Notes under the pieces: model-generated
The model's input: the letters and a program-made list of their open reading frames with translations, nothing else
Told to the model about the DNA's origin: nothing
The model's database searches: none
Translations under genes and position numbers: made by a program
In this document: positions 9,001-24,499 of the stretch, piece by piece
Numbering within the stretch: the stretch's first letter is position 1
Layout of the letters: each line of letters begins with the position of its first letter
Origin: a virus
Direction: 5' to 3' (one strand)
DNA length: 48,272 nt
IMG/VR virus record: IMGVR_UViG_3300006735_000056
Coordinates: 1-48,272 of that record

Positions 9001-12000
9001 GGTGAGATGTTCACGTCAAACGGCGTGCTCAACAGCACCTCACTCGCTGACTACAGAACCGCTCATCCACTTCGGCATGCTGTGTTTATGGGATTCGGTA
9101 TGGCCAGCAATTCTGATTGGTGTTTCCACATGGACGGCGGTTATCACCCCGGTGGCTCGTGGTTGGACAATCAACTGACGTTCAATCCACCACACCCCAA
9201 CGACAACAGCCGCGTAGCAAAAAGCGGCGTGGCTGGTAATGAACTACACCCAAGCGCATTCCGCGTAGCAGCGCCGTTGGCCAACCGGGTGCTCTACGGC
9301 TCATCTGCATCTTTTGCCAGCGACACCATCGAGAGCGACGACGTCGAACTCGAATACATCGCTGTCGACGCCACGAAATGTCAGAATGGGGAGGAAATGG
9401 CTGCCCTGCTCGGCTCTGCCATCAACTCATTCCCCGGTGCTGGTGCACTGAAGGCTATGGGTGGGACGTTCCTACCCAGCATGGGGACCAGCAACCGGCA
9501 AGACCGCTACGGTTGGGTCGAAGTCACGGGAGTTGTCGCCTATTTCCTCAGTGCAAACGACACGGCTGGGAACGTCAAGACCAACGCCATCAAGGACAAC
9601 TTCATGACGCTGGCCTTTTCCAGTCAGATTTTGGCTGAGCAAGTTCCTGAAAGCGGTTGGTTGCGAACAAGTGCCGACTTTGACAACGGGGTAGACAGCA
9701 ACAACGATTCTGCTGCTTTCGCACCCTATCACAGTCGAATCGTCAAACTTGACACGAGTTCGAGCCAATACCACGTCACCTTCTATCTCGGTAGCAATCG
9801 CATCGCTGGTTCAAAGGCCTTTGAGTCGCTTAAGACGTGGAAGGACTACCTCGACACAGGTGTTGCTGCAGGCAATGAGGTTGTTCCCGATGTAAGCAGT
9901 GCAACCAAGGTCTACGTGTGGAGCAAAGCAGGTGTGCACCGATGGGACAACGCGGGTCGGCTTGAGGGCTATTCGCAAGTGCACTTCAGCGGCTTGGTCG
10001 ACGCCATCGACAGGACGCGGCCAGTTGGACTACCGGGTTGGCACGGTGAACGCTATTCCTACCTGAACACGCTGGCCGTGTCCGGCGCGTATTCTGCCGG
10101 CCTTGGTGCATGGCACCCGTCCCTCGGCTTCTCTCCATTCGGCGGTAGCATGGGTTGCGCGACTGTGCTTGGTCACTTGCCTCACATCGCGCCTATGCCC
10201 AATAGTCCCGAAAGTGGCTTGCCCAACGACGGGAGTAATGGCGCTGCCGACTTCCCTGACTACGACACACCCAACGGCCCGAACTACGACGCTGACGATG
10301 ATGGCGACCAGTCCTACAGCGCGAGTTTCGTTGATGCCAGCAGTAACAACACCCCTCCCATCACCACGTTTGACGAAAACGTGCACAAGGACTTACAGCA
10401 TGCTCAGGGTGTCTATGCCCGAGCCATGTTGGTCGTCGCTCACGAATCAGAACTGGCTTTGGTCGCCAAGCGCGACCGTGACGGTATCAGGTGTGTTGGT
10501 GACTGGTTGCGGTCCAAAGACGCAAGTAGCATTACGTTGGCCGGCACAACACTTTGGGACGACCGGATTCACGGTCAGGACCGCTTCATCGCAACAGCGA
10601 ACGCAGGTCCCAACATTGAGGCTCTCATCGTTGACGACACGACTCTGCCGACGGTGAGCAGTCCTACCGCAGCCAGTGGTTTGGTAGCCTCACCGTTCAA
10701 CGCTGAGTTCTTCTTGCACACGACCGTTTCAGCAGACACTGAACTTGAAAATGCTGAGCCGTGTCGCAAACCAACTGGCGACTTGTTCCTCGACATTGAC
10801 AAGAGCATCGGCTCTTTCTATTCCGCAAGCGCTGGTGCGCAGCGCAACATCATGGACCACTTCTATGAGGCAGGGAGCAACAACCCAATGGGTGGCTTGT
10901 GGGGCGGTAACACGCAGAAGAACTCCTACTGGATGGGTGACGTCAACGGTTATGAGATGTTCAAGCGTTCACCGGCCAAGAACTTCAGCATCGAACACAT
11001 CGTGTGGAAACGGATGGACGGAGGTAGCCTATCGTTGCCTGCCATGAACGCTCGTGGGCTTGGTGCTGTGCCATGGGTCAGCCGCGTTGAAGGTAGCAAC
11101 GCCTACACGACTGGTGAGAAACTGCTTGGCAACGTGCGTTTCTCGTTTGAAACGACAAACTCAGCGATGATGCCTATCATGCGAGCGCATGAACTCGGTC
11201 ATCCTCAATTGGCTGTTGACCCACCTGTTGAACTCCGCGATGTGTTGGAAATCCCCAACGAAGAGATGCAGTTTGACGACATGGTCGTTGTCGATGACAC
11301 GGGACAATCGCATACGTTGAACGGTGGCTCACCGCTGGGTGTTGTCATTCGCGCCTTCCGCTCCAGCGGCGAACGACTCGCGAGCGGGCTTGCCCCGTCT
11401 GTTGCAGGCACTGGGCTTGAGCCGAACATGACGATTCGTCTACCCGACCCCAACGCGATTCCCGGCAACATCCTTGTTCGCAGTGGGTTCGACCGTGTGC
11501 AAGCCTATCAGACTGAAACCATGGGTGATGGCGGTATGATGACCAATCCACAAAACCTCGGTCAACTGTTTGATGGGCTGACCGGGCCTTTCGACGCACC
11601 TGTGCTGTCCGAGGCAGGCTGGGAGCATATCGACAAGACAGGATTGGACAGCACCAGCAGCAAGTGGGACGCGGCGACGGGTGACAAGCCTCTGAGCAGT
11701 GCGTATGAACTGCACGACCGCACTCTGTTTTTCCACGTCACCAAGATGGGGCACAGTCACACCGACCGTTACCCAACAACCTACACGCACAGCGGGGGTC
11801 TGCAAAATCAAGCATTGACGGTGTCTTCGTATGCGAGCAGCACTGCTGTTTTGACCGCATCTGCGTCAATCACAACTGCAATCTTCGACGCCGACTTCGC
11901 CACGAAGGAAGTCATGGACGAAGGGTCAGGTAAGCAACGTAGGTTCCTGCGTCTCGCCACCGCAACAGACAGCGTCGTTGTTTCCTACACAGGCATCAGT

Positions 12001-15000
12001 GGGGCTACATTTACGGGAGTAGTTGGTGATATTGACCTTGACCAGTTCTTGCTCGACAACCCGCCTGCTTCGTCCACCATCAACGTCACTCCTTCCTATT
12101 ACGTGCCTGCTGGTAGCACTCGCTTCTTCGCAGCACGACGTTTGCGTGACCACGCGGAGGTCAGCGGTAACAGTCCCGACATGGCGCACACGCACTACTT
12201 GAACGGGGATGCTAACACGACAGGCTATGCCCGCTACAGCGTGCCACGTATGACCCCCATGCCCTACCCACGTATGGGGCACCACTTCGTCAACGCCACC
12301 ATGCCAATGCTACCCGGACACTGGGCGCATCCCGCTTATCAGGGCCTCTATTCGGGTCACGAAGCAGAACGTCGTGCGACGCTACGCGACCCTGACTACA
12401 TTCGTCTGTTGGAGCATGCTGACCTTGACGACTCTACTTTCGATGCTACCGTCTCAGACTACCTCCACCCTCTCAATCCGCAAATCCGCATTGGAAGCCT
12501 GACCGCTACACCAAGCGGACCCAGCGATATTCACGGTGGTGCCTTCACTTTGATGTTTGAGACGAAGGTGCGCTTCGACGGCTACGGTGTTCTTGCCTCA
12601 AAGGGCACGGCAGGGGACATGAACAAGTTAGGAGGTCACTCGATTGTGTTGGAGGCTGGTGGAAACTACACGCAAGACGGTCACTTCCCTGACCCCGCTG
12701 AGGTTGGTGCCTACCAGATTGTCATTCAACCCAATCTACACGAGACACAGATTGCTGGTTTCCATCACAACAATAGCACGACTACCGCCTTGCCAAACGG
12801 TAGCAAGCGTGCGCTCACAGCCCAGCAAATTCACCTTGTGGTCGGTATCAAGTATGACAGTGAGCGGGGTGGGTCGCCCATTGGTGGAGCAACGCTCATT
12901 CTTGCCGAGGCGACGTTGGCTGACGTGAGAGGTTGTGAAATCTTCGTGAATGAGGTCATTCTCGACCACGACCCCGACCACGGCAGTCACTTCACAAACA
13001 TCCCACCGATGCTGCTCTATAACCCACTGGGTGTGCAGGGTAGCGAGTCACCGACATTTACACGTCGGACTCAACCGTATCATCCGGGTATGTTTGAGGA
13101 CAGCACACCCGGACACACGTTGAACATCCCATGGTGGAGTATTTTTCACAAAGTAGCACCCGACGACTCTTCATCTACCGGTTTCAGGCATTTGGCGCTG
13201 TATCGCATTGACAACTTCTACCAGTTCTGTCGAGCGTCATCGGGTGCAGTCGCGGCACAACTGACGCTGGCTGGCTACCCCTCCATCAGTCCCGACATCT
13301 ATTCTGACGTGATGGCCAACGTCTCACTCAGTCCTAAGTGCACCGTTACCGGTAGCGGCTCAGGTTACATCGAGGTTGACGATGCGTCGTTCTTCCCGAA
13401 CAAACCAGCCTATGGGGAGCGTCTGCACTACGTTGACGCAAGTGGAAATGACAAGTTCATCACCTACACTCAACGCAGTGGCACGACTCACAACGCTGCA
13501 ACGATGAACCAACCTGACCGCTTCGTCACCAGTGCAAGTTCACCCGGTAACGGAACGGTTTTGCGACTAACGCGACCCTACAGTGAACGTATGACTGAAA
13601 CGCTGTTCACTCATTCCAAGAGCAGCGTGTTGACCCGCATCATGCCACAGATGCTGTCGGGTTCACGCGACACGAACAGCCTCTATTCGGCTGATGCGTT
13701 CTTGTGCATGTGGCACCACAACCTCGGTCGTCCTCACACGTTCTATTCCGACAGGGCGAGGACATGGGGCGGCACAACAACAGACCGCGCTATCAACAAA
13801 GCAGCGTATAACGGCATGCCCGAGCACTTCGAGACGGTCCATTACCACGCGGTGAACTACGCGGCAAGCCATGGCCCGTTCCATCTTGACTTCAAGACGC
13901 CCAAACCCGCGCAGCACTTGTCAGGCACCTTCAGTTCGGTCAGCGGTTCACCCTCTACACTGGTGTTTGGTGCAGACGTTTCAGGCGACGGTTTGGTCGG
14001 TAAGGTGCTGTTCACCGATGGGCGAGTCATTGGAACGGTTGCATCTGTTTCAACCACCGACGTCACGTTGACCGGTGACATCCTCTACACCCCCGCTGCT
14101 TCAACGACCGTCTACGTCGGTGCAGATGGTTCGGTTGACACGGCGGCCAACATTCACGCCATGACCGGGTATCAGGCTCAGGGTGGCACTTCAACGATGC
14201 TGACTCATTACTGGCCGTGCGGTAGTCGAGGTGGGCCGCTGGTCAGCCGACTCGACGGCTATGCGGCTTGGGCTGCCGGGTGGCATGTGCCTCGCCAATA
14301 TTCATCCGGTGGCGGTAAGCACTGGGTCGATGACGACGACGATGGCTCATACGCTGTGTCCAGTGGTTTGAGCGACGGCTCGTTGGTTGCGTCTCGCACC
14401 TATCCGTTCGGCTATCGCTTCGGTCTACGTCAACCGTGGAATCGTCCGCAGTGGGGCTTCTACGGTATGCGCGCACATCGCGAGGAAAGCCTGTTCAGTG
14501 GTTCACCAGCCAACGCCAATTATGCTGTGGGTAACGGCACCGGGCCATTGGTTGCATATGAGAATCAGACGTTGACAGCAAAGGGCGGAAGCAACAGCAA
14601 CCAAACGCTGAATCCGACATACGCTGGTATCATGGAACGTCAGACCAACTTCAGCGCCATGCTCGGTCCTGACAAGGCTGAATGGCAGGTTCGCTACAGC
14701 GACGGTCGCCGCATGACTCGCTCATTTGGTTGCCCTGTGCGCACCATTCGCAACGGTAGCGGCGCTCCGCGCGATTGGTGGGGTGACAGTGCCGGTTTGG
14801 GCATCTCCACGATTGATGCTGCTGTCGGGTATTACCTCGTTGACTGGTGGGGCAACACGCGTGGTGAAGACATTCGACGTGCCCCGGTGCGAGGCTTTGG
14901 TATTCGCCCAGCATGGGACGCGGGTGATGCGTATGAGTATGACCGCACCAACGGCCGCACGCCCTACGCTCGGCTCTATAACAACGGCAAACCGATTGTC

Positions 15001-16362
15001 AACCTCAAGGGTGTTGCTGACAGCAGCGGTGACGTGCTGAGCAGTCCTACCGCCGTCGTGCCTCGCTTTGGCGGTCGAGTCAACAAAACAAACAACGGTA
15101 GCGGCACCACGCTCGTTGACGTCTTCGCTCCCACCAACGCACTGCGCGTGGGCGACATGGGTGGCGGTCGTGGTGTCCGTTATCCGACGCAGTTCAACGA
15201 AGATGTGCTGGTCGAAATTAGCGACGTCTATCAAGCGTCAGGTGTTGTCTTGTCAGGCAACACCGCTGAGCCTGCCTTTGGTCAAGGACTCATCCGTCCG
15301 CTTGACAGTGAGGTGCAACCTGACGAAATCAAGCGCGGCATCAGCCGCCGTCTTGGTGTTGACGAGGATGGTTTGCTGAAGCCCGATGCCGTCGTCAGCG
15401 ACCGAGTCGAAAGCGTCACTGGCACCAGTGTCCACAAGGATGCGGTGTCGCGCTCATCCCCTCGCATCGGTATTGACGGTGAGACGACTGAATCGCTGTT
15501 CAACGGTGTTTCGACGGACATGGTCGCCATCAACAGCGAAGCCCACAGCCTGCACACTGACCTCGGTGTAGGGCAGCGAATTGTGCTTGAAGGCGGTATG
15601 CAGACTGGCTCACGGACGCTTGGCGACTATGACCTAACGACTCTGTCCTTCGCTGGTCAACCGCATGGTGGCGTTATGCGATTTACGCACACGAGCAACA
15701 TCAAACCAAGTGGCGGCACCTATGTCCTTGAGTCGCGCTCTTTCGCTGCGCCGTTCGATGACACAGGATGGGGGCGCTCAGGCTCCGGTAACACCAGCAA
15801 CCCGTTCCAAACCACAACTGCGACGTCTGCTCCGCACAACCTGACGACCACCAAGGTCACGTTCATGCTGCGCCCAGTTCGACTGCTTGACAACCAACAC
15901 GTTGCTGTCTTCCGCAGTGAGCGCAACGTCGCTGGCTCGACACCTCAAGACGGCGGCACGGCTTACGGCGCGACTGCGGGTGGAAAATATGGTCTGTTCA
16001 CGTATGAGGCGACGGACGCGACGTCAACGAACTACGTGCGCACGACCATGCCTGACGGCAACGCCCCGTATCACCCAGTCTACTTGATGGAGAGCAGTAG
16101 CGATACGGTGCCTGTCTCCAAGGGTCCGAAACTACCCGGCACTGCTGTCGCTGGTTTCGACAGCGACTCGCTCAAGAGCGTGGTTACACGACTCGTTGTC
16201 AGCGAGAACACGCTACAGCACTTCCGTAGCGATGCACCTCGTCGCAGCCTTTCCAAGAAGGACTTCTCAGTCAAGCCTCGGTTCAGTCAGTCGTTGCACA
16301 GCAAGGGGCATAAAGGGGATGTGGACTACGGTGCATCAGACCACAGTGGTGATGCGGCATGA
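1..16362 (+). CDS. giant virion-type protein, 5' end outside window
   Basis: The frame is open from base 1, so the true start lies to the left and the protein exceeds 5,450 residues. The visible N-terminal part (about residues 1-65) looks like a concanavalin/LamG-type beta-sandwich, with the pattern VLFVNGV then PVFIGG. A second LamG-like stretch lies near 12481-12960 (residues about 4158-4317), with FTLMFETKVRF followed by a FVNEVIL strand. Short beta modules resembling phage structural repeats are seen near 11990 (YTGISGATFTGV) and 13345-13500 (FITYTQRSG). The chain is rich in Ser, Thr, Gly and Asn, and I see no obvious membrane span, coiled coil or enzyme motif. It is the first of a run of plus-strand virion-type genes and overlaps the next gene by ATGA. 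A giant tail fibre, adhesin or baseplate-associated protein is the best inference; a tape measure is less likely because long helical repeats are lacking. Confidence 0.8.
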   Translation, partial: RPLLHLVAGVREGKVVLFVNGVLMASQELSQEFVLNSSNEPVFIGGHGGQFRGIIESLHISSAFSDEMTTRSAPLVSSRTACLMRFEEPISPISGTYTFSSIGSSSGLSTLNIGTTTAASLASALTGKTQTSGTVDFTKTPYSTGDYSVVDFATSPGTKRTHLVPHVPFNLLINPGAVKRSTMKPNQSPPERVRLLSIDLGAGTALVSSVHLDFVNSTHDSRDVPSLHDGLRPVLHSRSSATGDDYFVVITGDSLIENGSGRPYQPPHFSTQIVDRTGQMVLDEGHFEQHGIVYSDRMATTASDSDNPFAVTWPSTLDASFQVGHSGRHTLNHVQGHHYLRQMADPQEEILDQRIDAADVLTLIYDAASKGIDKQFPMNSRVDYYRELGTLPLLTVVSSSTAYEEVDNGLTGASRDLIAIGGLSGGLRFDPSPFFLKGPVPEDYANADAELRKHHLRPSATSRIAVLEVSGLSSYGMSPYVEIHYNAIDLTGASMGKTAPMLMVEKTIPAANTLLSGSTYVLDVIETALSSGATLHAPGGVISFGAPSDSAMSQFFASNTLMGDNSEGFESDDELDERFTPQNYSTIVANQPRKPPQNIAASHTTATHESQFNRLVIQQIDAPTETFTNRRAVHTDHTSPSNGQFDVGRTASASNVHEMFDIIDNHAVLSPNIRARYFVQPSNRTRTRQLTYARGAFTRPNDFNVAKVMLLMSPMRLRSVAEDESDEGSRATIVRCVGMNADAMTRNVSEIGSGSPNSHVVKEIEPNAPVVTVTLGGVGQGAYDTKPTFDPSPMARLPYSTRRGYSVYATSARVDLSASPQNFLNVVALNNDTDDLKTWATYPFPKKGRIYLKTGASAEYGNKTGVSFHFANASIGSGTYVLSDGREVASFHEWVVGSGLIPQASSLSGTSSDVYPLGEVILGDGHFFAENAADDGTTVNDRMFQSMDNVTHDYQLGTQFASTRALVEIPLFNAQFFENVSEGVLPGPDNSLKLHVDPTMTAHTWNPSPVGRRFPEKAPSDRSARGAYAYAAENSEQVRGATIIHKAEIVSGKYRLRVDKPEIFPAAVTSAGAFSYVTNVVRYRRAFLSNGEWLIYDNDPATDGYLRFEDEDWSTSENFLRDYEVGHSLMTAGGYESEALVPMESDILTSSSAMERRSEYYHDSASVKTQGGNVDYGLRQYVSAVEFKAGPKSNPHASRTVAKRASGTVLSVTPLGTTANFGGLVLLTFSEEDFAKFPKVPVPTDTNNLITFTTGDYHYELTVPSPDGSIRRFIYWGSAANVGLRSSDMTPENLGTSIVVQPVFTALAATTPNYLLVTSADFIAGEKATLTKRSFDIGFSVNPLDVALETTLNISDSFRPGGTGVRKSWTVANVASTSSMTVTNTSSLFLQSNTLGLTVKVNDYLYAETNTGSAVTVVRYLGRVTAIADYSASSSLPLTITLDGSMTSATQSNINSEIAGGSLTIHLRVGCHDVMKNDDEAVLNRQWLSPYAQGGLRHGDTVWANMTYNNPHAVEGMFAKSRGVFNEALVWTGFNDGDGSLTTSARTSIPLENFLIGDSCLETAQNYAQHVNKTIELNYTNLGLSTNLAPKVAFVDPYLANEEHARVLLYDVAHDREFVAFQDLHMQVQTSAKAAEIGWQREFAASNIVDASTEIDLVPYSIGFNGASQHAFLTQIDVAAGFLSQNKYARSTIRSRFMESAYAHDIANHVATSLLNPIASGAALTNIVKQLTNVTRIAQFGKAHGHFVHTGYHKAGPFGNRSLGDSILPRTTDGSAIPYWADKMHTYTRTSFSDTGSFLLKLREHRESVTGASFRDPSTLFDTPDGTRVVPAFLALKGIRSEALSLTTHDEARLQHLKQWTDMDFTRRLTIDLGEVGARIGGTSILAAANEVVRLINQAGAKQGRTHARRPSEQYPGESESLDLTRVGARAADGIRDPASSHINADFAATGSTHDPAVWWDEDKAFESHDKGTHMGYVRAHVGRIVQDTNGNEGFSIVVHSTVPGATGRNFCLWLDNSKGQSRYTPKFLIGHGGRYRTFWCQPDELSGENMHPAPMPLNKHGRPFAPVTTLQGYVVPDDSGVEFKASSDFAPRGDETSDPVMRAVSMATGSGQAHNTVNTESLEVEGFNTSYVTGLRTGTSAVARVNFGGLTASGVPGFAPDVGKWGFGRKGDVRIAARYGPTKDTSSGAAAPTTYSSYVPSADVREEAIGNAPLYGFRFIDHRGVGHGIRFIYRSMGESFALDETQLPSTIDDEIAVFIDDRDVGQGGFTIGKHMHGVGDATGRFGAAGTNTSLMPWRGNRWNPVPSPSAAYDCNAAYDSSSNKITVTLQAPYNACPHFDVLGYMGFPLSQGLLQLSDPFVDSSMTGSQGHVFSYTHRTREGSSGTHVFHGIQGSTFTPSHTHSGGSVSANSSSVFGTGSINIRALISSTVNWTTLVTDELLAAITAAAINLADPNVEEGVPFDCRDMFASDGRTFGEWGVAEDAIRIRAFNAAGGGIRPLSDFFSASLHRDFAIQSAHVEFGDIEEIEVDNGGISLPSTSRAATDASIDNGLRAECGYLPFTVLQVFTKSKGSNSNTASPVLVDSRNNPVDPDEWHRRLIGYTFTANAGDHVLPRVDNPSVLLLAAEVTSDPIQLTTNQVWHFAQPAGEEGTSISSKTKIASFGSVSNLHVQNGDVLVTSQNGANSKTHLSLVTGTKTSTFPTSDPASNAVAQRFGDTARAFRTAGSRVLGSVFSRPMLFFRGGRDSIDHSVPLFFGGGFSGVTLDINDGTKNDYSEFFTHPYAAGPTGVAGVQHANEFLSSYSMLDCNAMMAFFPGTPLLNQHRGNINPPFFNSENMLTPDLKRGTQGHHSDYPAPYSSGVKVQVPIPLVLRFAHPTARYSDHSGTTDSKTTYLIFGPGQAFPFTAQTATPDNSSEPHPGRALTVGNTWSKVPTHTSGKQFLHNHITNSTVGFLPELHSTQVNRYRTHWRQAMNWEPAQGKSNATRLLQRPESGRFYGEMFTSNGVLNSTSLADYRTAHPLRHAVFMGFGMASNSDWCFHMDGGYHPGGSWLDNQLTFNPPHPNDNSRVAKSGVAGNELHPSAFRVAAPLANRVLYGSSASFASDTIESDDVELEYIAVDATKCQNGEEMAALLGSAINSFPGAGALKAMGGTFLPSMGTSNRQDRYGWVEVTGVVAYFLSANDTAGNVKTNAIKDNFMTLAFSSQILAEQVPESGWLRTSADFDNGVDSNNDSAAFAPYHSRIVKLDTSSSQYHVTFYLGSNRIAGSKAFESLKTWKDYLDTGVAAGNEVVPDVSSATKVYVWSKAGVHRWDNAGRLEGYSQVHFSGLVDAIDRTRPVGLPGWHGERYSYLNTLAVSGAYSAGLGAWHPSLGFSPFGGSMGCATVLGHLPHIAPMPNSPESGLPNDGSNGAADFPDYDTPNGPNYDADDDGDQSYSASFVDASSNNTPPITTFDENVHKDLQHAQGVYARAMLVVAHESELALVAKRDRDGIRCVGDWLRSKDASSITLAGTTLWDDRIHGQDRFIATANAGPNIEALIVDDTTLPTVSSPTAASGLVASPFNAEFFLHTTVSADTELENAEPCRKPTGDLFLDIDKSIGSFYSASAGAQRNIMDHFYEAGSNNPMGGLWGGNTQKNSYWMGDVNGYEMFKRSPAKNFSIEHIVWKRMDGGSLSLPAMNARGLGAVPWVSRVEGSNAYTTGEKLLGNVRFSFETTNSAMMPIMRAHELGHPQLAVDPPVELRDVLEIPNEEMQFDDMVVVDDTGQSHTLNGGSPLGVVIRAFRSSGERLASGLAPSVAGTGLEPNMTIRLPDPNAIPGNILVRSGFDRVQAYQTETMGDGGMMTNPQNLGQLFDGLTGPFDAPVLSEAGWEHIDKTGLDSTSSKWDAATGDKPLSSAYELHDRTLFFHVTKMGHSHTDRYPTTYTHSGGLQNQALTVSSYASSTAVLTASASITTAIFDADFATKEVMDEGSGKQRRFLRLATATDSVVVSYTGISGATFTGVVGDIDLDQFLLDNPPASSTINVTPSYYVPAGSTRFFAARRLRDHAEVSGNSPDMAHTHYLNGDANTTGYARYSVPRMTPMPYPRMGHHFVNATMPMLPGHWAHPAYQGLYSGHEAERRATLRDPDYIRLLEHADLDDSTFDATVSDYLHPLNPQIRIGSLTATPSGPSDIHGGAFTLMFETKVRFDGYGVLASKGTAGDMNKLGGHSIVLEAGGNYTQDGHFPDPAEVGAYQIVIQPNLHETQIAGFHHNNSTTTALPNGSKRALTAQQIHLVVGIKYDSERGGSPIGGATLILAEATLADVRGCEIFVNEVILDHDPDHGSHFTNIPPMLLYNPLGVQGSESPTFTRRTQPYHPGMFEDSTPGHTLNIPWWSIFHKVAPDDSSSTGFRHLALYRIDNFYQFCRASSGAVAAQLTLAGYPSISPDIYSDVMANVSLSPKCTVTGSGSGYIEVDDASFFPNKPAYGERLHYVDASGNDKFITYTQRSGTTHNAATMNQPDRFVTSASSPGNGTVLRLTRPYSERMTETLFTHSKSSVLTRIMPQMLSGSRDTNSLYSADAFLCMWHHNLGRPHTFYSDRARTWGGTTTDRAINKAAYNGMPEHFETVHYHAVNYAASHGPFHLDFKTPKPAQHLSGTFSSVSGSPSTLVFGADVSGDGLVGKVLFTDGRVIGTVASVSTTDVTLTGDILYTPAASTTVYVGADGSVDTAANIHAMTGYQAQGGTSTMLTHYWPCGSRGGPLVSRLDGYAAWAAGWHVPRQYSSGGGKHWVDDDDDGSYAVSSGLSDGSLVASRTYPFGYRFGLRQPWNRPQWGFYGMRAHREESLFSGSPANANYAVGNGTGPLVAYENQTLTAKGGSNSNQTLNPTYAGIMERQTNFSAMLGPDKAEWQVRYSDGRRMTRSFGCPVRTIRNGSGAPRDWWGDSAGLGISTIDAAVGYYLVDWWGNTRGEDIRRAPVRGFGIRPAWDAGDAYEYDRTNGRTPYARLYNNGKPIVNLKGVADSSGDVLSSPTAVVPRFGGRVNKTNNGSGTTLVDVFAPTNALRVGDMGGGRGVRYPTQFNEDVLVEISDVYQASGVVLSGNTAEPAFGQGLIRPLDSEVQPDEIKRGISRRLGVDEDGLLKPDAVVSDRVESVTGTSVHKDAVSRSSPRIGIDGETTESLFNGVSTDMVAINSEAHSLHTDLGVGQRIVLEGGMQTGSRTLGDYDLTTLSFAGQPHGGVMRFTHTSNIKPSGGTYVLESRSFAAPFDDTGWGRSGSGNTSNPFQTTTATSAPHNLTTTKVTFMLRPVRLLDNQHVAVFRSERNVAGSTPQDGGTAYGATAGGKYGLFTYEATDATSTNYVRTTMPDGNAPYHPVYLMESSSDTVPVSKGPKLPGTAVAGFDSDSLKSVVTRLVVSENTLQHFRSDAPRRSLSKKDFSVKPRFSQSLHSKGHKGDVDYGASDHSGDAA

Positions 16363-17603
16363 GCGTTTCGGATTTTGGCCGCGATTCAAACGAGCCGCCC
16401 ATGACCAATGACGAATATCAACAGTGGATGCAAAGGGTCATCGAGTATGCGATGAAGCCGGGGCAACAATATCGCTCAGACCAACAATTGACGTTGAATG
16501 ATTTGTTCGGAATTGTCCCGACCGACAAAGCCATGAACACGCGAAAGTTTGCGAGTGGGGAATACCCAAACGCATGGTGGTTTGCCAACCGTTCTCCTGA
16601 CAGGCAGAGGGCGGAATCGTTAGGCGCGCACGAGAGGCAAATCGCACAAGACATGTCAGTCTACGGTCACGGTAGAGACACTACGAAGGTGCCCACCGCT
16701 CAACGAGCGAAAGACTCGCGCAGACCTGTCGCCATTGTGGAGCGCAGAACCCCGAAAACACTCCACGCCCGTGACCATAGAGGTGTGAGGGATGCTTGGA
16801 ATCCTGACCAATACATTAGGTCGTTCAGACTGGTGGACAATGAAGGAAAACCGCTGTCTGTCATTGATGATGGTGGGTATCACCAACCGGGAGAAGGGCA
16901 AAGAGAAGCGGTTCGGGGCTTTAGCGGTCAAACGACTGGCCCCAAGCGTAGAGGACACTACCGCAATTTGATGGAAGGTTTGGTTCGTCACGGACTCAAT
17001 GTTCGCTCAAATGACCGCAACGATATGTCACATCCGTTTCACACCAAGTTTCAACGAACGCTACCCCGCGACATAGCGGTTCAAGCGAGTATTCGCGACC
17101 GCAGCGGAGATGTTGAACACTATGCTGAAGGAGAATATGACCCTTCAGATGTAAGACCGTATGACGCCTTGCTTTATGAACGAAACATCCCATCGTCGCC
17201 TGAAAACTGGGGCGACTTGAGCGGCCCAACGCGCAGCCGATTTCCCATCACCGTGGAGCACAGAGAGCGCATACCCTTCAGCGAACACCCCGAGTGGGAT
17301 GGCTCAAAGCAAACGCAGTTGTTTATTCCAAAACGACCAATCGGCGTATCGCCGTCCGTGTGGGCGGCCACAAATCCAATTGAGCGTAGGAATCGGGCTG
17401 AGCAAGATTTGAGAAGCAACATGGACTGGTGGTTTAGCCGGCAACAGCAGGGGGAGCAGGCGCTACGGCAGGGTGGCGTCTCGCTGGACGAAACATTGGA
17501 TTTGGGTTTGTTGCCCGGAATAAGCCAACCACCAATGCCTCGAATGGAGTATGAAACAAACCCTCGCTTCGTAGGTGTTAAATCTACACCTGATGTCATG
17601 TGA
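16359..17603 (+). CDS. unrecognised 414-residue protein of structural cluster
   Basis: The start ATG overlaps the stop of the giant gene (ATGA). The protein is polar and rich in Arg, Asp, Asn, Pro and Trp, with no membrane span or signal peptide. Around residues 198-230 there is a stretch reading RRGHYRNLMEGLV, then RSNDRNDMSHPFH. This recalls the C-terminal part of GNAT-like domains in some phage proteins, where a 'Y..L...L...G....S..RN.MS' pattern occurs; that resemblance is weak and is inference only. Its place between a giant virion-type gene and the HMG-CoA lyase does not settle a role. It could be a minor virion protein or an injected protein. Confidence 0.75.
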   Translation: MSVSDFGRDSNEPPMTNDEYQQWMQRVIEYAMKPGQQYRSDQQLTLNDLFGIVPTDKAMNTRKFASGEYPNAWWFANRSPDRQRAESLGAHERQIAQDMSVYGHGRDTTKVPTAQRAKDSRRPVAIVERRTPKTLHARDHRGVRDAWNPDQYIRSFRLVDNEGKPLSVIDDGGYHQPGEGQREAVRGFSGQTTGPKRRGHYRNLMEGLVRHGLNVRSNDRNDMSHPFHTKFQRTLPRDIAVQASIRDRSGDVEHYAEGEYDPSDVRPYDALLYERNIPSSPENWGDLSGPTRSRFPITVEHRERIPFSEHPEWDGSKQTQLFIPKRPIGVSPSVWAATNPIERRNRAEQDLRSNMDWWFSRQQQGEQALRQGGVSLDETLDLGLLPGISQPPMPRMEYETNPRFVGVKSTPDVM

Positions 17604-17605
17604 CC

Positions 17606-18451
17606 ATGCGCGTGACCATTTACGAAGTCGGACCTCGTGATGGGTTGCAGTCACTACCACATGTCGTGCCTGTTCAACAACGACGTCAACTCATTTCATC
17701 GCTCTATAACGCAGGTTTGCAGCACGTCGAAGAGGTGTCCTTTGTCCACCCCAAAGTGCTGCCGCAGATGGCCGATGCAGAGGATGTCTACAGCGGTAAG
17801 GGCGATGCCCTTGTGCTCAATAAGCGAGGCTATGAGCGAGCCGTTGCTGCGGGTGTTGAGCGCATCAACATCGTGCTTTCGCCTTGTGAGTCGTTCTGCA
17901 TCAACAACATGGGTCGCAGGTATGACGAATTGGTGTTGAACTATCGGACGTTTATGCGAGACGTTCCGAAGGACAAGGTGCGTGTCTACCTGTCCATGGC
18001 GTTTGGCAGTCCTGACAGCGGCGTGTTTGACGCTCGCACACTACGCCGCTGCATCAACGACGCCAAGATGTTCGGCGATACGGTTGTGTTTGCAGACACT
18101 GTCGGTGTGGGCACAGCCAACGACGTTTGGGAAATGTCGCGCTTAGCACAAGACTACGGTATGCACGCTGCTTTACACCTACATCATCGTGGCGACGAAG
18201 GCAAATCGCTTGCACTTGTGCGTGCAGGCATTCTTGCCGGTATCACTGAGTTTGACGCCAGTATCGGTGGGTTGGGTGGATGCCCCTTCGCTAAAGGAGG
18301 CGGGGCAAACATTGCCACTGAATCGCTGGCTCGTCACCTCCACGCTTGGGGTCTTGAGACTGGCCTTGACAGTCGAGCATTGAGGAGTGCAGCGGCTCTT
18401 GCCTTCACGATGAGGCACCCACAGCCGCAGATAACAGAGGCGCACTGCTAA
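17606..18451 (+). CDS. hydroxymethylglutaryl-CoA lyase (DRE-TIM metallolyase)
   Basis: The predicted reaction is cleavage of 3-hydroxy-3-methylglutaryl-CoA into acetoacetate and acetyl-CoA, using a divalent metal in a TIM barrel. Numbering is from the ATG at 17606. The opening EVGPRDGLQ carries the catalytic Arg11 and metal Asp12. EEVSFVHPK followed by PQMAD matches the HMG-CoA lyase substrate loop. FADTVGVGT is the conserved ADT strand, HLHH holds metal ligands His191 and His193, and GGLGGCPFAKG with NIATES gives the family signature, including Cys226, Asn235 and Glu239. Length (281 residues) fits the bacterial family. The usual NEK after GLQ is replaced by SLP, and the D of HxHD is His. A GTG at 17600 is an alternative start overlapping the previous stop. 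Isopropylmalate or homocitrate synthase is excluded by the GGLGGCP signature. Nothing around it is metabolic, so it is an auxiliary metabolic gene candidate. Confidence 0.93.
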   Translation: MRVTIYEVGPRDGLQSLPHVVPVQQRRQLISSLYNAGLQHVEEVSFVHPKVLPQMADAEDVYSGKGDALVLNKRGYERAVAAGVERINIVLSPCESFCINNMGRRYDELVLNYRTFMRDVPKDKVRVYLSMAFGSPDSGVFDARTLRRCINDAKMFGDTVVFADTVGVGTANDVWEMSRLAQDYGMHAALHLHHRGDEGKSLALVRAGILAGITEFDASIGGLGGCPFAKGGGANIATESLARHLHAWGLETGLDSRALRSAAALAFTMRHPQPQITEAHC

Positions 18452-18477
18452 AGCGCATCACCGCTTGGGGTGGAGTG

Positions 18478-19860
18478 ATGGCTTACCTTGGTAGCAAGCG
18501 CAGGTCCAGCGACTATGACGCTGTGATGAAGCAAGTGCGCAAACCGGTGTTTGTCGACAACGCGCTACACCTCGGTGAGTTCACTGCTCAAGGCGTTGAC
18601 AAAACCAAGGTCACGGTGCGGCAGCGTAAGGCTGCAAACTACCCCATTGCGACAGAACGCACCTTCGCCATCGAAGAGGGGCAGGACGAGATTACGCTCA
18701 CGCATACTGGTGCGCCGGGTCACTCGACAACCGCTGCACGCTATGACGACACAGCACCCATGCTCTACAGCAGTGAAAAGCCATCGCAACGCCTACGCCT
18801 CGGCTCTGTTCTCAGCAGTGCCAACGGTCTACGCATGTCGGTGCGAAACAAGCGTGGTATGACACTGAGCGAACTTGGCTTTGAGAGCGACAGCGGGCAC
18901 GTCGCCTTCCCATGCGATGCTGGCTTAAGAACTACGGACATGGCGATGCGATTGGGACAGGACATTGACTCACTCACATCGGTCAACCTAACCGGTCCCC
19001 GCACTGCTCAGTCAGGGAATGTTCGCCGTCGTCACAGCACGACCTTCGTTGCGAAGAATTTCAAAGCCGTGAACCTGCTCACTGCGCTACGCTTCCTCGG
19101 TCGACACGATAACCGCGTTGCTTTGTTCGACCGCTTTGGCAACCTCATCTATGCGCCGTTCACCTATGGTGGACCCGGTCGCATTGTTGAAGCCAGTTTG
19201 CGTTCGGGCGGAGCCAACACCGACCCAACCGACGAAAGCGTCACTGCCGTAGCGGTTGTCGGTATTCCTTTGGCTGTGAACGAGAGAGCCTTTGCCGAAG
19301 TGCGAGACTCAGAGCGAGAGAGTGGTCGTGGGGCCAACATCATCGAAGAACCGCAGCGCATCGAGGACTTCACGGTCAGCAGCAACGAAGGTGCCCGCCG
19401 CGTCGCGCGTGCGGTGCTCAAGGCCAACAACCTGAGCGCTGGTAAGAAGACCAGCGCAGGTCATCCTGACGCATTCGATTTGCGACCCGGTGGCGTCATT
19501 GAATATGAGAACGTCAAGCGTGTGTTGACTGAGGTAAGGCACCGCCTGAGTTCCAACGAATCCGACCTCGTTTTCCTCAATGTGGACATCGGTATCGAGG
19601 GTGTGCTGCAGGGCATCAGTGAGGGTATCGGGAACGTCGACCTTGAGCCTGAGACGCAGGAGCAGGTGCGCGAACATGTGCTATCGCTGTTCGGAGATGT
19701 CGAAATTCGCTCTATCGCCATCGTTACGCTTAGGGGGCATGGCGATTCAGGTATGCTTGTGGGACGCGCTATGGGTCGCGGCATTATCGGTGGCACGACG
19801 TCGTCGCAGACCATTGGTGGTAGCAAGACGCAAGCCATTGTGTTGAGAGGTGACAACTGA
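18478..19860 (+). CDS. probable tail/baseplate structural protein
   Basis: This 460-residue protein starts at ATG 18478 behind GGGGTGGAG; an adjacent GTG at 18475 is the alternative. It is soluble and beta-rich, with no signal peptide. A segment near residues 320-350 (DLRPGGVIEYENVKRV) resembles the 'G..I.l....' turn seen in tail hub and late-control (gpD-like) baseplate proteins, followed by a VRHRLSSNESDLVFLNVDI stretch. The C-terminus is Gly-rich (GRAMGRGIIGGTTSS). It is followed with a TGATG overlap by a small gene and then a fibre-like gene, an order common in tail modules. The tail assignment rests mainly on context and is inference; the gene itself is certain from length, start site and spacing. 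Confidence 0.7.
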   Translation: MAYLGSKRRSSDYDAVMKQVRKPVFVDNALHLGEFTAQGVDKTKVTVRQRKAANYPIATERTFAIEEGQDEITLTHTGAPGHSTTAARYDDTAPMLYSSEKPSQRLRLGSVLSSANGLRMSVRNKRGMTLSELGFESDSGHVAFPCDAGLRTTDMAMRLGQDIDSLTSVNLTGPRTAQSGNVRRRHSTTFVAKNFKAVNLLTALRFLGRHDNRVALFDRFGNLIYAPFTYGGPGRIVEASLRSGGANTDPTDESVTAVAVVGIPLAVNERAFAEVRDSERESGRGANIIEEPQRIEDFTVSSNEGARRVARAVLKANNLSAGKKTSAGHPDAFDLRPGGVIEYENVKRVLTEVRHRLSSNESDLVFLNVDIGIEGVLQGISEGIGNVDLEPETQEQVREHVLSLFGDVEIRSIAIVTLRGHGDSGMLVGRAMGRGIIGGTTSSQTIGGSKTQAIVLRGDN

Positions 19861-20201
19861 TGCCAGTGAGTGACCGACTGAAGCGCATGCTGCTTGAAAC
19901 CATTGAGTCCAACATTGATGAGATGGTCATCGGCTTTGATGGCACACCGTCAACCAGTCAGGACGGGGCTGCGGGACGACCTGCCATCGTCATCACACCC
20001 ACAGTGCGTATCACCAGCGACAGCACTATTCTTGTCGAAGGCTTCATACCAGCGACCGAGTCATTCACGGACACGCTGAAGGAAGTCTTCGTTCAACTGC
20101 GCGGCACCAACCCCATCCCAATCGCTCGCCACACTATCGCTCCAATCTTCAAAACGACCGGCAACGAAATGCGGATTCAAGTCATCATCGAGGTGAAGTG
20201 A
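19860..20201 (+). CDS. small structural protein upstream of fibre
   Basis: A 113-residue protein whose ATG overlaps the previous stop (TGATG), behind a GAGAGGTGACAACTG ribosome site. The N-terminal helix is RLKRMLLETIESNIDEMVIG. It is followed by beta strands with VITPTVRITSDSTILVEGFIP. The build (helix, then 'G.dGTpst', then Val/Thr/Ile strands) is like small phage proteins that precede tail fibres, but no named family is recognised with confidence. The gene sits one base ahead of the fibre gene and probably shares its message. A baseplate or fibre-connector role is inference from context. Confidence 0.65.
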   Translation: MPVSDRLKRMLLETIESNIDEMVIGFDGTPSTSQDGAAGRPAIVITPTVRITSDSTILVEGFIPATESFTDTLKEVFVQLRGTNPIPIARHTIAPIFKTTGNEMRIQVIIEVK

Positions 20202-20202
20202 C

Positions 20203-22716
20203 ATGGCAAACCCAATCTCAGGACACACAAAGGGCAGTAACGAGGGGCTTACCGACGGTGAGCATATCATCTCGCCCTCGCTGACGAACATCTACGAGGG
20301 TCTGCATGGCAACGGTATTCTGTCGCCATATGACACGGCCTACACTGGTGCGAACCGCAACACACCTGCGTCTTTGCCCGGAGCCATCAGTCAAGGTGCC
20401 AATGCTTCAAAGGTGACAGTCAAGGCCTTTGAGGCCATCATTGACGGCATCCTGTATGACTTCGGCGGAGGCTCTGATGTCACCATCACGCTCGGCTCTA
20501 CGGGCGACCACCTAAGCGGTGGCTCAACCACCAGCCTGACCAGTGGACAGGAGTGTCTGTTCATCATCATCGCGACTGCTGCTGGTGTGAAGTTCACTCA
20601 ATCCAACATCATCACAAGCGCTGTGGGCGCATACCCGTCTGTCACGGGCACTTCGGCCGCATACCTGACAGATGGCAAAGGAACGCAGAACCAACAGTCG
20701 TTTGTGTTGGGGACGGTGCGAGCGACCAACTCAGGAGGCTCGACCGTTGGTCCGGGCATCCAAGCCCTCTCAGAGTTCAACGACAAGCGTGTGTTCCTAC
20801 GCCCAACGCCTCTCTTCTTCTCGCCTGTGACCAAAGGCAACGTCGGCAGCACGACGGGTATCAACAGCCACACAGGGCTTGCTGGTGCCCACACAGGTGA
20901 ATCGGGTGACTTGGGTGATACGGGCGTGATTTGGCAGTCGTTCAACAGCGACAACGAGTCAATGCTGTATTACACTCGCAAGGACAGCAGCAACCGCCAC
21001 ACTCACCTGCTTGGACCGACGAACATCAACGTCAGCAGCCCAAGCGGTAACCTGACGTTCACGTTCGACAGCGACCAAGTCTTCGTGTTGACGCCGAGCA
21101 CGACCATCAACCTGAACCCCAGTGGCACATTCCCACCGGGACATACGGTCTTCGTGTCTGTGCCCAGCGGCAGCACCGTCACCTTCGACTCGACTGGTCT
21201 GAACTCAAGCGTGGTTGCGACTGAAGCCACCATGTTCGTCTATGACGGCTCGAACTGGAAGAAGGTCATGGTGAGCGGCACCATCAGTCCAGCCTCCAAC
21301 GGAGCCAGCGGTCGCGTTCAACTGTCCGATGGCGCGGGTGGCTTCACCAGCGATGCTGCTTTATATTTCACGGCAGGGACTCCTGACACCCTGACCGTTG
21401 ACGGGAAACTCAACGTCACCGGTTTGATTGACCCAACCGGTTTGGTCATTGACGAGAAGGCCAACGTCGCAGCCACAGGTCACACCACCACAGCAGCCAA
21501 AGGTCTGCTATGGGTCAAGAACGATGAGCCAAATCGCCTCTATTTCACAGACGACGCTGGGACTGACAAGAAGGTCATTCATGCCACGGACAGCGTCACT
21601 GAACTGAGCGACGTGAGCAGCGTTGGCTCCGGTGCCATCATCACTGGTTCCGAGCGTAGCAAATTGAGCGGCATCGCGACTTCCGCTACGGCGACAGCAG
21701 CGCCGGCAATTGAGGACAACAGCGGCACGCCTGCGTTTGCATCAGGCATCACGAAGGGCGAAGTGCTCACGCTCATCAACGTCGCTGACGGGGCGACTGC
21801 AAACGCGGGCACAGTCACGAGTGTCGCTACGACGGCACCCATCACGGGCGGCACCATTACGGGGTCGGGCACAATTGGCATCAGCGCCGCAACGACGAGC
21901 GCAGCAGGGTCAATGTCTGGTGCGGATAAGACGAAACTCGACGGTATTGATGCGAATGCAGTTGATGCCGCAGGTGCCGTCGCTGCCGTTGAAGCGGAAG
22001 CAGGGTTGAACTTTTCGACCTCATCGAACGATGCGATTATCGAAAACACCACACAGGATAAGGACATCATCTTCAAGGTCAATGATGGCAGCGTGAGCAC
22101 AGAAGTCATGCGCATTGACGGTGATGTTTCAAGAGTTGGTATTGGAACTGATACCCCAGATGCGAGGCTACATCTTGAAGGCTCGGCTAACGACGACGTA
22201 GTTCTTTTGGTCACAAATCCGGGTGGAAACGCAGGGTCCACTCAAGGCAAGGTGCATATTGGTTTAACGCACTCCCACACCAATACTGTTCCAAGTGCTA
22301 CCATTTCTGTAATTGAAAAAACTGTTGCTGACCATAGAGGACATCTGACCTTTGGCACGAGGACAACTGCTGCAGCCACCGCTGTTCCTACTGAAAAAAT
22401 GAGAATTACTGACGGTGGAAGGGTAGGTATCGGAACTACTTCTCCCGCACAGGTTTTGGATGTCGTAGGAACCATCAGGCAATCAACGGTAACGAACGCT
22501 GTTCTTATCACAAATGCTAACGGTGACTTGGGGGCTGCGAGCAATCTTGCTGACTTAGCCTATCTCGCCCCCGGTGGTGCGCAAACCGACACTTTCACGG
22601 CCACAACTTCCAGTGGGAGTTGGGCGGGTGCAGTGCCTACGACACTCCAAACCGCCATCGACAGGCTTGCTGCGCATATTGTGAACATTCCGGGCGCACC
22701 ACCGCAAATCCCATGA
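20203..22716 (+). CDS. tail-fibre-like protein
   Basis: An 837-residue protein with a good ribosome site (GAGGTGAAGTGAC-ATG). The N-terminal 180 residues include KAFEAIIDGILYDFGGG and FIIIATAAG, like the virion-attached domain of phage fibres. The middle is Gly/Ser/Thr-rich, with AITT-type strands and SGADKTKLDGID, a coil motif frequent in fibre proteins. Near the C-terminus are two copies of the fibre motif: RVGIGTDTPDARLHLEG (about residue 645) and RVGIGTTSPAQVLDVVG (about residue 741), each followed by beta strands. It ends with LQTAIDRLAAHI. Host-cell recognition is the likely role. The stretch from about 22130 to 22560 uses more A+T-rich codons, including AGA, AGG and GGA, than the rest of the gene. 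This is the last plus-strand gene. Confidence 0.85.
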   Translation: MANPISGHTKGSNEGLTDGEHIISPSLTNIYEGLHGNGILSPYDTAYTGANRNTPASLPGAISQGANASKVTVKAFEAIIDGILYDFGGGSDVTITLGSTGDHLSGGSTTSLTSGQECLFIIIATAAGVKFTQSNIITSAVGAYPSVTGTSAAYLTDGKGTQNQQSFVLGTVRATNSGGSTVGPGIQALSEFNDKRVFLRPTPLFFSPVTKGNVGSTTGINSHTGLAGAHTGESGDLGDTGVIWQSFNSDNESMLYYTRKDSSNRHTHLLGPTNINVSSPSGNLTFTFDSDQVFVLTPSTTINLNPSGTFPPGHTVFVSVPSGSTVTFDSTGLNSSVVATEATMFVYDGSNWKKVMVSGTISPASNGASGRVQLSDGAGGFTSDAALYFTAGTPDTLTVDGKLNVTGLIDPTGLVIDEKANVAATGHTTTAAKGLLWVKNDEPNRLYFTDDAGTDKKVIHATDSVTELSDVSSVGSGAIITGSERSKLSGIATSATATAAPAIEDNSGTPAFASGITKGEVLTLINVADGATANAGTVTSVATTAPITGGTITGSGTIGISAATTSAAGSMSGADKTKLDGIDANAVDAAGAVAAVEAEAGLNFSTSSNDAIIENTTQDKDIIFKVNDGSVSTEVMRIDGDVSRVGIGTDTPDARLHLEGSANDDVVLLVTNPGGNAGSTQGKVHIGLTHSHTNTVPSATISVIEKTVADHRGHLTFGTRTTAAATAVPTEKMRITDGGRVGIGTTSPAQVLDVVGTIRQSTVTNAVLITNANGDLGAASNLADLAYLAPGGAQTDTFTATTSSGSWAGAVPTTLQTAIDRLAAHIVNIPGAPPQIP

Positions 22717-22729
22717 GGTGAAGGAATGG

Positions 22730-22752
22730 GGTTGTTCTCTTGATTCACAACC
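22730..22752. terminator. weak inverted repeat at convergent gene junction
   Basis: Plus-strand and minus-strand transcription meet here. GGTTGT at 22730-22735 pairs with ACAACC at 22747-22752 around an 11-base loop. The right arm overlaps the stop codon of the minus-strand zinc-ribbon gene. The stem is short and no T-run is attached, so a bidirectional terminator is only a possibility. Confidence 0.2.
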
Positions 22753-22981
22753 GCTTCTTAGCGGGTGTTGTGTTGGCTATCTTGTTGGTGCTGACTTTTC
22801 CCTTGCTCCTCTTTGAGCGCTTGAAAACGCTGTCCACCCACAAGTGACCGCACTCCCTACACTGCCAAATCGAGATGCGCTCCTTGTCAGCATCAAGGAA
22901 ACGACCGTTGATGCGACGAGGAATGTGACGGTGTCCGCACTGGCGGCAGACGACCTTCATACGGTCAAGGAGTCGGCCCAT
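22745..22981 (-). CDS. zinc-ribbon protein
   Basis: A 78-residue protein starting 6 bases after the thermosome stop. CRQCGH (Cys12, Cys15) and CRECGHLW (Cys41, Cys44) form a standard four-cysteine zinc ribbon. The C-terminal third is strongly basic (KRSKRSKGK, then AKKRL), which suits nucleic-acid binding. It is the last gene of the long minus-strand replication operon. The exact target, DNA, RNA or protein, cannot be read from the sequence. The opposite strand under its basic tail reads as a hydrophobic peptide, which I treat as a shadow. Confidence 0.8.
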   Translation of the reverse strand: MGRLLDRMKVVCRQCGHRHIPRRINGRFLDADKERISIWQCRECGHLWVDSVFKRSKRSKGKVSTNKIANTTPAKKRL

Positions 22982-22987
22982 AGAGGG

Positions 22988-24499
22988 TCAACCTTCCTTG
23001 CGACCGATGATGTCGTCAATGCGCAGCATGGCGGTTGTGACCTCTGTTGCGGTCGTGATAGCGCTGCGGACGAGCGTTTCAGGCTCGTAGACGCGCCACT
23101 TAGCCATGTGAACGATACCGCCGTTGTGCACGTCAGGACCGTAGCCGTAGCCTTCGTGACGCATGGCGAGAACAGTGTCCAAACCTGAGTGTCCGGCGTT
23201 CTCAGCAATGGTGCTGGGAATGATTTCCAGCGCGTCAGCGAAAGCGTCAATCGCCATCTGTCCTCGCCCACCGACCTCCGATGCACGGGAGCGTAGACGA
23301 GAAGCCAGTTCAAGGTAGGCGGTGCCGCCGCCGTAGCAGAGCCTGTCGCCGTTATGAATGAGCGAGACGACACCGAGGGCATCATCGAAGCCACGTTGCA
23401 CCTCATCAAGTGTGGACTGTGTCGCACCAAACAGCACGAGTGTGGCCTCGCTGGAGGCGATGTCGCTGGCCACGAAGAGGTAGTCCACGTCGTTATACCG
23501 GCGGCGGTCCACGACCGCTCTACTAACGTCCATACCGTCCTCGGCCATATGGTAGGGCTTGGAGCCGAACTCATTTCCGAGGCGCTTCATGGTGCTCTCA
23601 GGCACGCGCCTGACGACGAAGATGTTGCGCTTTCGCAGGTATTGCACGACCGTGTCGTGCACACCGTCGCGCACGAACACGATGTCGGGCTGCGCTGCTT
23701 CGATGCGCTGCGCGGCCTCCAGCAAATGCTCGCGGCCTGCATTCTTCACCGCGCCGTATGACGTAGCATCGACCTGCACCTGCACGTTTCCGTCTTGCTT
23801 CTGCTCTTCCAACCCGCTGTTGATGAGCAGAGCGGACAGCGATTCGGTGTCCGTGAATTGACCGTCAGTAGTGACCACGTCTTTGTTGATGACGACGCCC
23901 TCAAACAGATAGGAGTCTTGCAGTGAACCACCGGGAGCGGCCAGCACGCGCACGTCCTTGACATCACCAACGGCTTCAATCGTCTTGACGCAGAGTTCAG
24001 CCACAGCGTCTGTAGCAGCCTCCAACGACTTGCCCGTAATCGCCGTGCTTGCGATGTCCGTAAGTCGGGGAGAGTCAGTGCGTTTGCTACCTTTGCCGGA
24101 AACGTCGGGGAGCGTCTCCAATACAGGAAGTTCCTCCAACACCATGCGCAGTGCGTCGCTGTAGCCACGTCCGATGATGTTGGGGTGTAGGCCCTTGTCG
24201 AAAAGCGTCTCTGCGTTGCTGAGCAACTGCCCTGCGAGCACCACACTGCTGGTCGTGCCGTCGTAGCAGTTCGTCTCCTGCACCTTGGCTACTTCAACCA
24301 GCATCTTCGCAGCCGGGTGAGCGCTATCGAGTTCGCGTAGAATGGTCGCGCCGTCGTTGGTGACGATGACGTTGCCGCCACCGTCGACCATCATCTTGTC
24401 CATGCCCATCGGGCCAAGCGTGGTCTTCACCGTCGCGACAACGCGCTTCGCTGCCTCAATATTCAGTCGTTGTGCTTTGTGATTCGTGTTCTCTGTCAT
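22988..24499 (-). CDS. group II chaperonin (thermosome subunit)
   Basis: An ATP-driven protein-folding chaperonin of the archaeal/eukaryal type, which forms a double ring with a built-in lid in the cytoplasm. Conserved signatures in order: VKTTLGPMGMDKMMVD (about 24-39), VTNDGATIL (46-54), a DGTTSSVVLAG nucleotide loop (80-90), DAFADALEIIPSTIAENAG, and MLRIDDIIG at the end. The usual Gly before DGTT is Tyr79 here (CYDGTTS), while the catalytic Asp80 is kept. The length (503) is about 40 residues below typical thermosomes, mostly at both termini. The start overlaps the exonuclease stop by 4 bp. Magroviruses are known to carry such a gene, and folding of large virion proteins such as the giant product is a reasonable inference. 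Confidence 0.95.
   Translation of the reverse strand: MTENTNHKAQRLNIEAAKRVVATVKTTLGPMGMDKMMVDGGGNVIVTNDGATILRELDSAHPAAKMLVEVAKVQETNCYDGTTSSVVLAGQLLSNAETLFDKGLHPNIIGRGYSDALRMVLEELPVLETLPDVSGKGSKRTDSPRLTDIASTAITGKSLEAATDAVAELCVKTIEAVGDVKDVRVLAAPGGSLQDSYLFEGVVINKDVVTTDGQFTDTESLSALLINSGLEEQKQDGNVQVQVDATSYGAVKNAGREHLLEAAQRIEAAQPDIVFVRDGVHDTVVQYLRKRNIFVVRRVPESTMKRLGNEFGSKPYHMAEDGMDVSRAVVDRRRYNDVDYLFVASDIASSEATLVLFGATQSTLDEVQRGFDDALGVVSLIHNGDRLCYGGGTAYLELASRLRSRASEVGGRGQMAIDAFADALEIIPSTIAENAGHSGLDTVLAMRHEGYGYGPDVHNGGIVHMAKWRVYEPETLVRSAITTATEVTTAMLRIDDIIGRKEG

Follow-up and report, generated by a model that had tools for sequence, protein, structure and literature searches.

Why should a virus of archaea carry a gene for an HMG-CoA-lyase-type enzyme next to the genes for its own virion? 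In archaea HMG-CoA is the compound from which mevalonate, and hence the isoprenoid membrane lipids, are made. The source record is a 48.3-kb virus contig, which was analysed over its whole length (the window), and the gene in question is a complete open reading frame of 281 codons that starts with ATG and has its stop codon within the coordinates given in Table 1; an alternative in-frame start, GTG, lies 6 bases 5′ of the ATG. Comparison with a 95%-identical copy in another record gave a dN/dS of about 0.05, which identifies the frame as a gene under purifying selection.

The 281-aa protein belongs to the HMGL-like (DRE-TIM) family and its fold is nearest to that of HMG-CoA lyases. The sole Pfam match was HMGL-like (PF00682; 1.4e-22, residues 3-264), which at 80.8 bits passed the curated gathering cut-off of 29 bits. 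NF004283 (HMG-CoA lyase) was by far the best of the NCBIfam models with 205.5 bits, followed by models for homocitrate synthase (37.2 bits), isopropylmalate synthase (25.6 bits) and aldolases (about 20 bits). Since the curated cut-off of NF004283, 246 bits, is not reached, the protein is filed here as HMGL-like and of the HMG-CoA-lyase type, which stops short of calling it a proven HMG-CoA lyase. HMG-CoA lyases also headed a sequence search of the PDB (best match 2ftp, 2.1e-37), and they came first, with Z values of 35-36, when the AlphaFold2 model (pLDDT 95.1, pTM 0.92) was compared by Foldseek and VIA; other DRE-TIM enzymes reached at most 27.3. Profile scores and structure rule out membership in the isopropylmalate or homocitrate synthases. 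The initial annotation, made from the sequence alone, had named the enzyme from the motifs GPRDGLQ, SFVHPK, HxH (HLH here), GGLGGCPFAKG and NIATE. All of these are found in the translation, and the identification is borne out by the Pfam, PDB and NF004283 results; that the protein does not go with the homocitrate/isopropylmalate synthases follows from profile scores and structure, not from a tree.

In the human lyase R41, E72, Y167 and C266 are critical residues and D42, H233, H235 and N275 are the Mg ligands (PMC6941031). The predicted metal ligands of the viral protein are D12, H191, H193 and N235, in the same order, and the predicted catalytic residues are R11, E42, R126/Y128, D164 and C226, with R11, E42, Y128 and C226 corresponding to human R41, E72, Y167 and C266. 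The motifs for R41-D42, R165/Y167, HxH, C266 and N275 are kept in 86 of 86 viral sequences, and the equivalent of E72 is kept, by a strict pattern, in 84. The edge of the active site is different. HxHDT was present in all 40 sampled cellular lyases and in none of the 86 viral proteins, whose counterpart is HxHH in 77 cases and HxH followed by E, V, K or G in the other 9. This clade-wide replacement means that specificity could differ. In addition, the profile alignment sets Val161 against human Ser201, the human numbering being inferred from a sequence match.

The register around the histidines deserves comment. An ungapped HMMER alignment pairs R195, not H193, with human H235, which would amount to the loss of a metal ligand. 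This was ruled out: HxH is present in 86 of 86 sequences, and in a profile-profile alignment the two ligand histidines are matched by H191 and H193, with a two-residue insertion right after them. The models agree with this register, as the viral one has a strand at 187-194 and a helix at 198-210 and a bacterial one a strand at 209-214 and a helix at 220-229, with HxH at 212/214. The most divergent viral lyases (loci L368, L369 and L370) read GGLGGCFS instead of GGLGGCPF, and their middle part is shortened; they retain RDGLQ, HxH, the Cys and the Asn.

The contig is that of a magrovirus-type archaeal tailed virus, of the Poseidoniales type, and the window is a 48-kb fragment of such a genome. 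The published magrovirus plan combines PolB, a chaperonin, replisome and clamp-loader genes with genes for the head and the tail, terminase and maturation protease among them, arranged as two opposed modules on 90-110 kb (PMC10768690). The gene content that defines Magrovirales is found in the genes of the window together with those of an 82.8-kb relative (G002). Besides PolB and the thermosome, the minus strand of the window encodes an ERCC4-type nuclease, a PD-(D/E)XK nuclease and an AAA clamp-loader-like protein. Among the matches listed from a phage collection, the best relatives of the PolB are haloarchaeal tailed viruses (22-25% identity). When 27 lyase-bearing records were tested, PolB was detected in 23 and the chaperonin in 24. 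In four records (G013, G018, G026 and G027; loci L041, L066, L089 and L090) the PolB matches fall in two separate places, and the TCP-1 match is much weaker than in other magrovirus-type records.

Table 1 Features of the window around the lyase gene, with the evidence for each.
Feature	Coordinates	Strand	Evidence or remark
Giant ORF, 5453 aa, probable tail/adhesin protein	1..16362	+	Open at the left end of the window; weak Laminin_G_3 match
414-aa ORF directly upstream of the lyase, family c24	16359..17603	+	No Pfam/PHROG match
HMG-CoA-lyase-type enzyme, 281 aa	17606..18451	+	Pfam, NCBIfam and PDB sequence matches, AlphaFold2 model, residue conservation
Codons of H191-L192-H193-H194, replacing HxHDT, two-residue insertion after	18176..18187	+	Profile-profile alignment, models, comparison of 86 sequences
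461-aa ORF directly downstream of the lyase, family c14	18475..19860	+	No Pfam/PDB match
113-aa ORF in the same operon-like run, family c18	19860..20201	+	ORF listing and locus families
837-aa ORF ending the plus-strand run, family c7	20203..22716	+	ORF listing and locus families
78-aa zinc-ribbon-like protein adjoining the thermosome gene	22745..22981	-	Many weak zinc-ribbon matches
Thermosome/TCP-1 chaperonin, convergent with the lyase-bearing run	22988..24499	-	Family match
Family B DNA polymerase (PolB)	30598..32976	-	Family match

Within the window the lyase gene occupies the 3′ end of the head-tail module, and the thermosome and replication genes follow downstream in convergent orientation (Table 1). 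Its neighbours of 414, 461, 113 and 837 aa gave no convincing family match, so that a virion role is assigned to them from position and strand. Two of these families recur with the gene: c24 is met close to the lyase in other records of the magrovirus type, and c14 in 26 loci. The 82.8-kb relative has the same local gene order; on its plus strand a conserved block is followed by terminase, maturation protease, tape measure, a 5613-aa ORF, a 405-aa ORF and then the lyase. The giant ORF, in the window as in this relative, is very large for a predicted archaeal-virus protein. A chimeric contig is ruled out, as the same context is seen in records from other samples, including the 82.8-kb contig. 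Two statements of the initial annotation hold: the virus is archaeal and of the Poseidoniales type, as PolB, thermosome and clamp loader indicate; and the gene sits in a structural module, insofar as the neighbours are virion genes by position and strand, and has no recognised metabolic neighbours. The check that it proposed on related viral contigs found the same gene at the same place.

How general is this arrangement? Viral contigs were scanned twice, which yielded 91 loci, many of which share one contig. Among 38 records no shorter than 70 kb, chosen by two genes other than the lyase (the A5 nuclease and the A6 conserved head-block protein), 29 or about three quarters have the lyase, one of them as a partial match at a contig end; this share may be high, since both markers come from lyase-bearing viruses and only the 80 nearest were retained, and the records are not independent. 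The lyase is thus widely retained in the long relatives. Its place varies. In 38 loci the lyase has the head block (c4-c6-c5-c3-c2) on its downstream side; in another 33 the lyase is among the tail-end genes, 27 times shortly before the convergent replication genes. Its direction is fixed: in 80 viral loci and the window, all 229 head-module and all 128 tail-end neighbours point the same way as the lyase, and all 150 replication-module neighbours point the opposite way. The gene has been relocated and retained; it stands at one or the other end of the morphogenesis module, always with virion genes. The space between lyase and head block is crowded by ORFs of the multi-copy cluster c0 (112 ORFs in 50 loci, e.g. 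L078:5443-6282), one with a DUF5872 match, which are possible surface or fibre proteins.

For 23 lyases, identities were correlated with the identities between the corresponding head-block markers (Mantel r 0.47; none of 2000 permutations as high), which is in keeping with mostly vertical descent of the gene. When 86 viral and 40 bacterial sequences, the latter picked with virus-derived patterns and mostly actinobacterial, were placed in a quick maximum-likelihood tree, a branch with support of 100 separated the two sets. This is consistent with a single origin of the lyase in these viruses and with an old viral lineage. In described phages the lyase was matched, at 30-32% identity, by no more than two Acinetobacter records and an unannotated faecal contig. 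The Acinetobacter case was rejected as an example from a described phage, since the record examined looks like a bacterial leucine-catabolism operon. The two records, 'Acinetobacter phage MD-2021a' of 328-379 kb (L372, CAKLQH020000001.1; also CAKLQF020000001.1), show carboxylase subunits, an enoyl-CoA hydratase, a lyase labelled leuA_2 and a LysR regulator, and are probably bacterial chromosome mislabelled as phage.

As to substrate, time of expression and metabolic purpose, we infer the following. The protein would be an Mg-dependent TIM-barrel enzyme that cleaves a CoA ester, and that it splits the HMG-CoA of the host, thereby salvaging carbon from lipid synthesis, is in our judgement the likeliest explanation, though no better than an even call. 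It agrees with the fold, the retained active-site residues, the purifying selection, the wide retention of the gene and its unvarying codirection with the morphogenesis genes. During infection the viral lyase would convert host HMG-CoA to acetyl-CoA and acetoacetate; the carbon returned to acetyl-CoA would supply energy and building blocks, and the same cleavage would curb host lipid synthesis. A non-enveloped lytic tailed virus needs no new lipid, so that HMG-CoA carbon would go back to acetyl-CoA. HMG-CoA synthase and reductase were found in none of 31 related viral records by a search that detected both families in 4 of 4 archaeal genomes. As no leucine-pathway gene was recognised near the lyase either, the substrate must be host-supplied. 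Speaking against HMG-CoA cleavage are the missed NF004283 cut-off, the absence of HxHDT and the assignment of the gene to leucine degradation by Xu et al. (PMC10160649).

In the latter assignment the lyase would serve the last step of host leucine catabolism, the same conversion of HMG-CoA to acetyl-CoA and acetoacetate, and a viral boost of this pathway would yield energy in a proteolytic host fed on amino acids. The chemistry is identical, and Poseidoniales are described as proteolytic, with many genes for amino-acid degradation (PMC6461757). However, flux need not be limited by the final step, and no other gene of leucine degradation was recognised beside the viral lyase, unlike in the Acinetobacter record with its carboxylase and hydratase; we regard this explanation as rather unlikely, though still a contender. 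No paper was found by literature searches on mevalonate and on leucine or HMG-CoA in Poseidoniales or Marine Group II. The altered active-site edge raises another thought, namely that the viral lineage has shifted to a different CoA ester or hydroxy acid, such as a citramalyl-CoA-like compound or a longer 3-hydroxy-3-methyl acyl-CoA, and that HxHH marks the new specificity. The replacement of Asp-Thr throughout the clade, the two-residue insertion, the Val at the position of human Ser201 and the missed curated cut-off would all fit. Every published catalytic and ligand residue is retained, however, and the fold most resembles that of HMG-CoA lyases, so a shift of this kind seems unlikely to us. 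Finally, the location of the gene within the morphogenesis module, codirectional with its neighbours, might suggest a virion-associated protein that has no enzymatic function and only borrows the fold. The metal ligands and the catalytic Cys are invariant despite pairwise identities down to about 31%, and we consider such a role highly improbable.

Returning to cleavage of host HMG-CoA, the presence of the lyase in most long genomes of the group points to one metabolic node, the HMG-CoA that feeds archaeal membrane lipids. If drain and salvage are indeed its purpose, these viruses would tax archaeal lipid synthesis. The hosts of magroviruses are among the most abundant archaea of the surface ocean, and the viruses themselves are, to our knowledge, known solely from metagenomes. 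A wider proposition, which we put forward with considerable doubt, is that HMG-CoA lyases of an old subfamily specific to viruses, in which the edge of the active site has been rewired (HxHH), are near-core in magroviruses, that this subfamily shuts off or salvages archaeal lipid synthesis or acts on another CoA ester, and that it survives relocations because it must be made together with the virion genes.

Compared with cellular HMG-CoA lyases (human HMGCL, 2cw6; bacterial 1ydn, 1ydo, 2ftp and 6nds), the viral protein has the fold, the Mg ligands and the catalytic Arg, Glu, Tyr and Cys in common, but identity is only 29-33%, HxHH and two extra residues stand in place of HxHDT, and both the stretch after ADAEDV and the C terminus are shorter. 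Isopropylmalate and homocitrate synthases and 4-hydroxy-2-oxovalerate aldolases share the TIM barrel and the HxH metal site, but match the viral protein far more weakly (profile scores of at most 37 bits, Z at most 27.3). Among viruses, the gene is not new, contrary to the initial annotation, which knew of no such case in archaeal viruses: the ICTV profile of the Aoguangviridae (2023) names HMG-CoA lyase in magroviruses (PMC10768690), and Xu et al. (2023) described magroviral HMGCL as an auxiliary metabolic gene (AMG) of leucine degradation and magroviral AMGs as sporadically distributed (PMC10160649). Likened by description, the Aoguangviridae Poseidoniales virus YSH_150918 and the HMGCL of Xu et al. 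agree with our contig in enzyme annotation, taxonomic order, PolB, clamp loader, chaperonin and opposed modules, whereas the GC content of the window is about 53-60% (in 1-kb steps) as against 31.5% in YSH_150918. In the ICTV profile and in Xu et al., where the lyase figures as one auxiliary gene, we found no discussion of active-site changes, position or prevalence of the lyase. What is added here to these known systems is the prevalence of the gene, its fixed strand with a shifting place, the viral active-site signature and the coherence of the viral sequences as one group.
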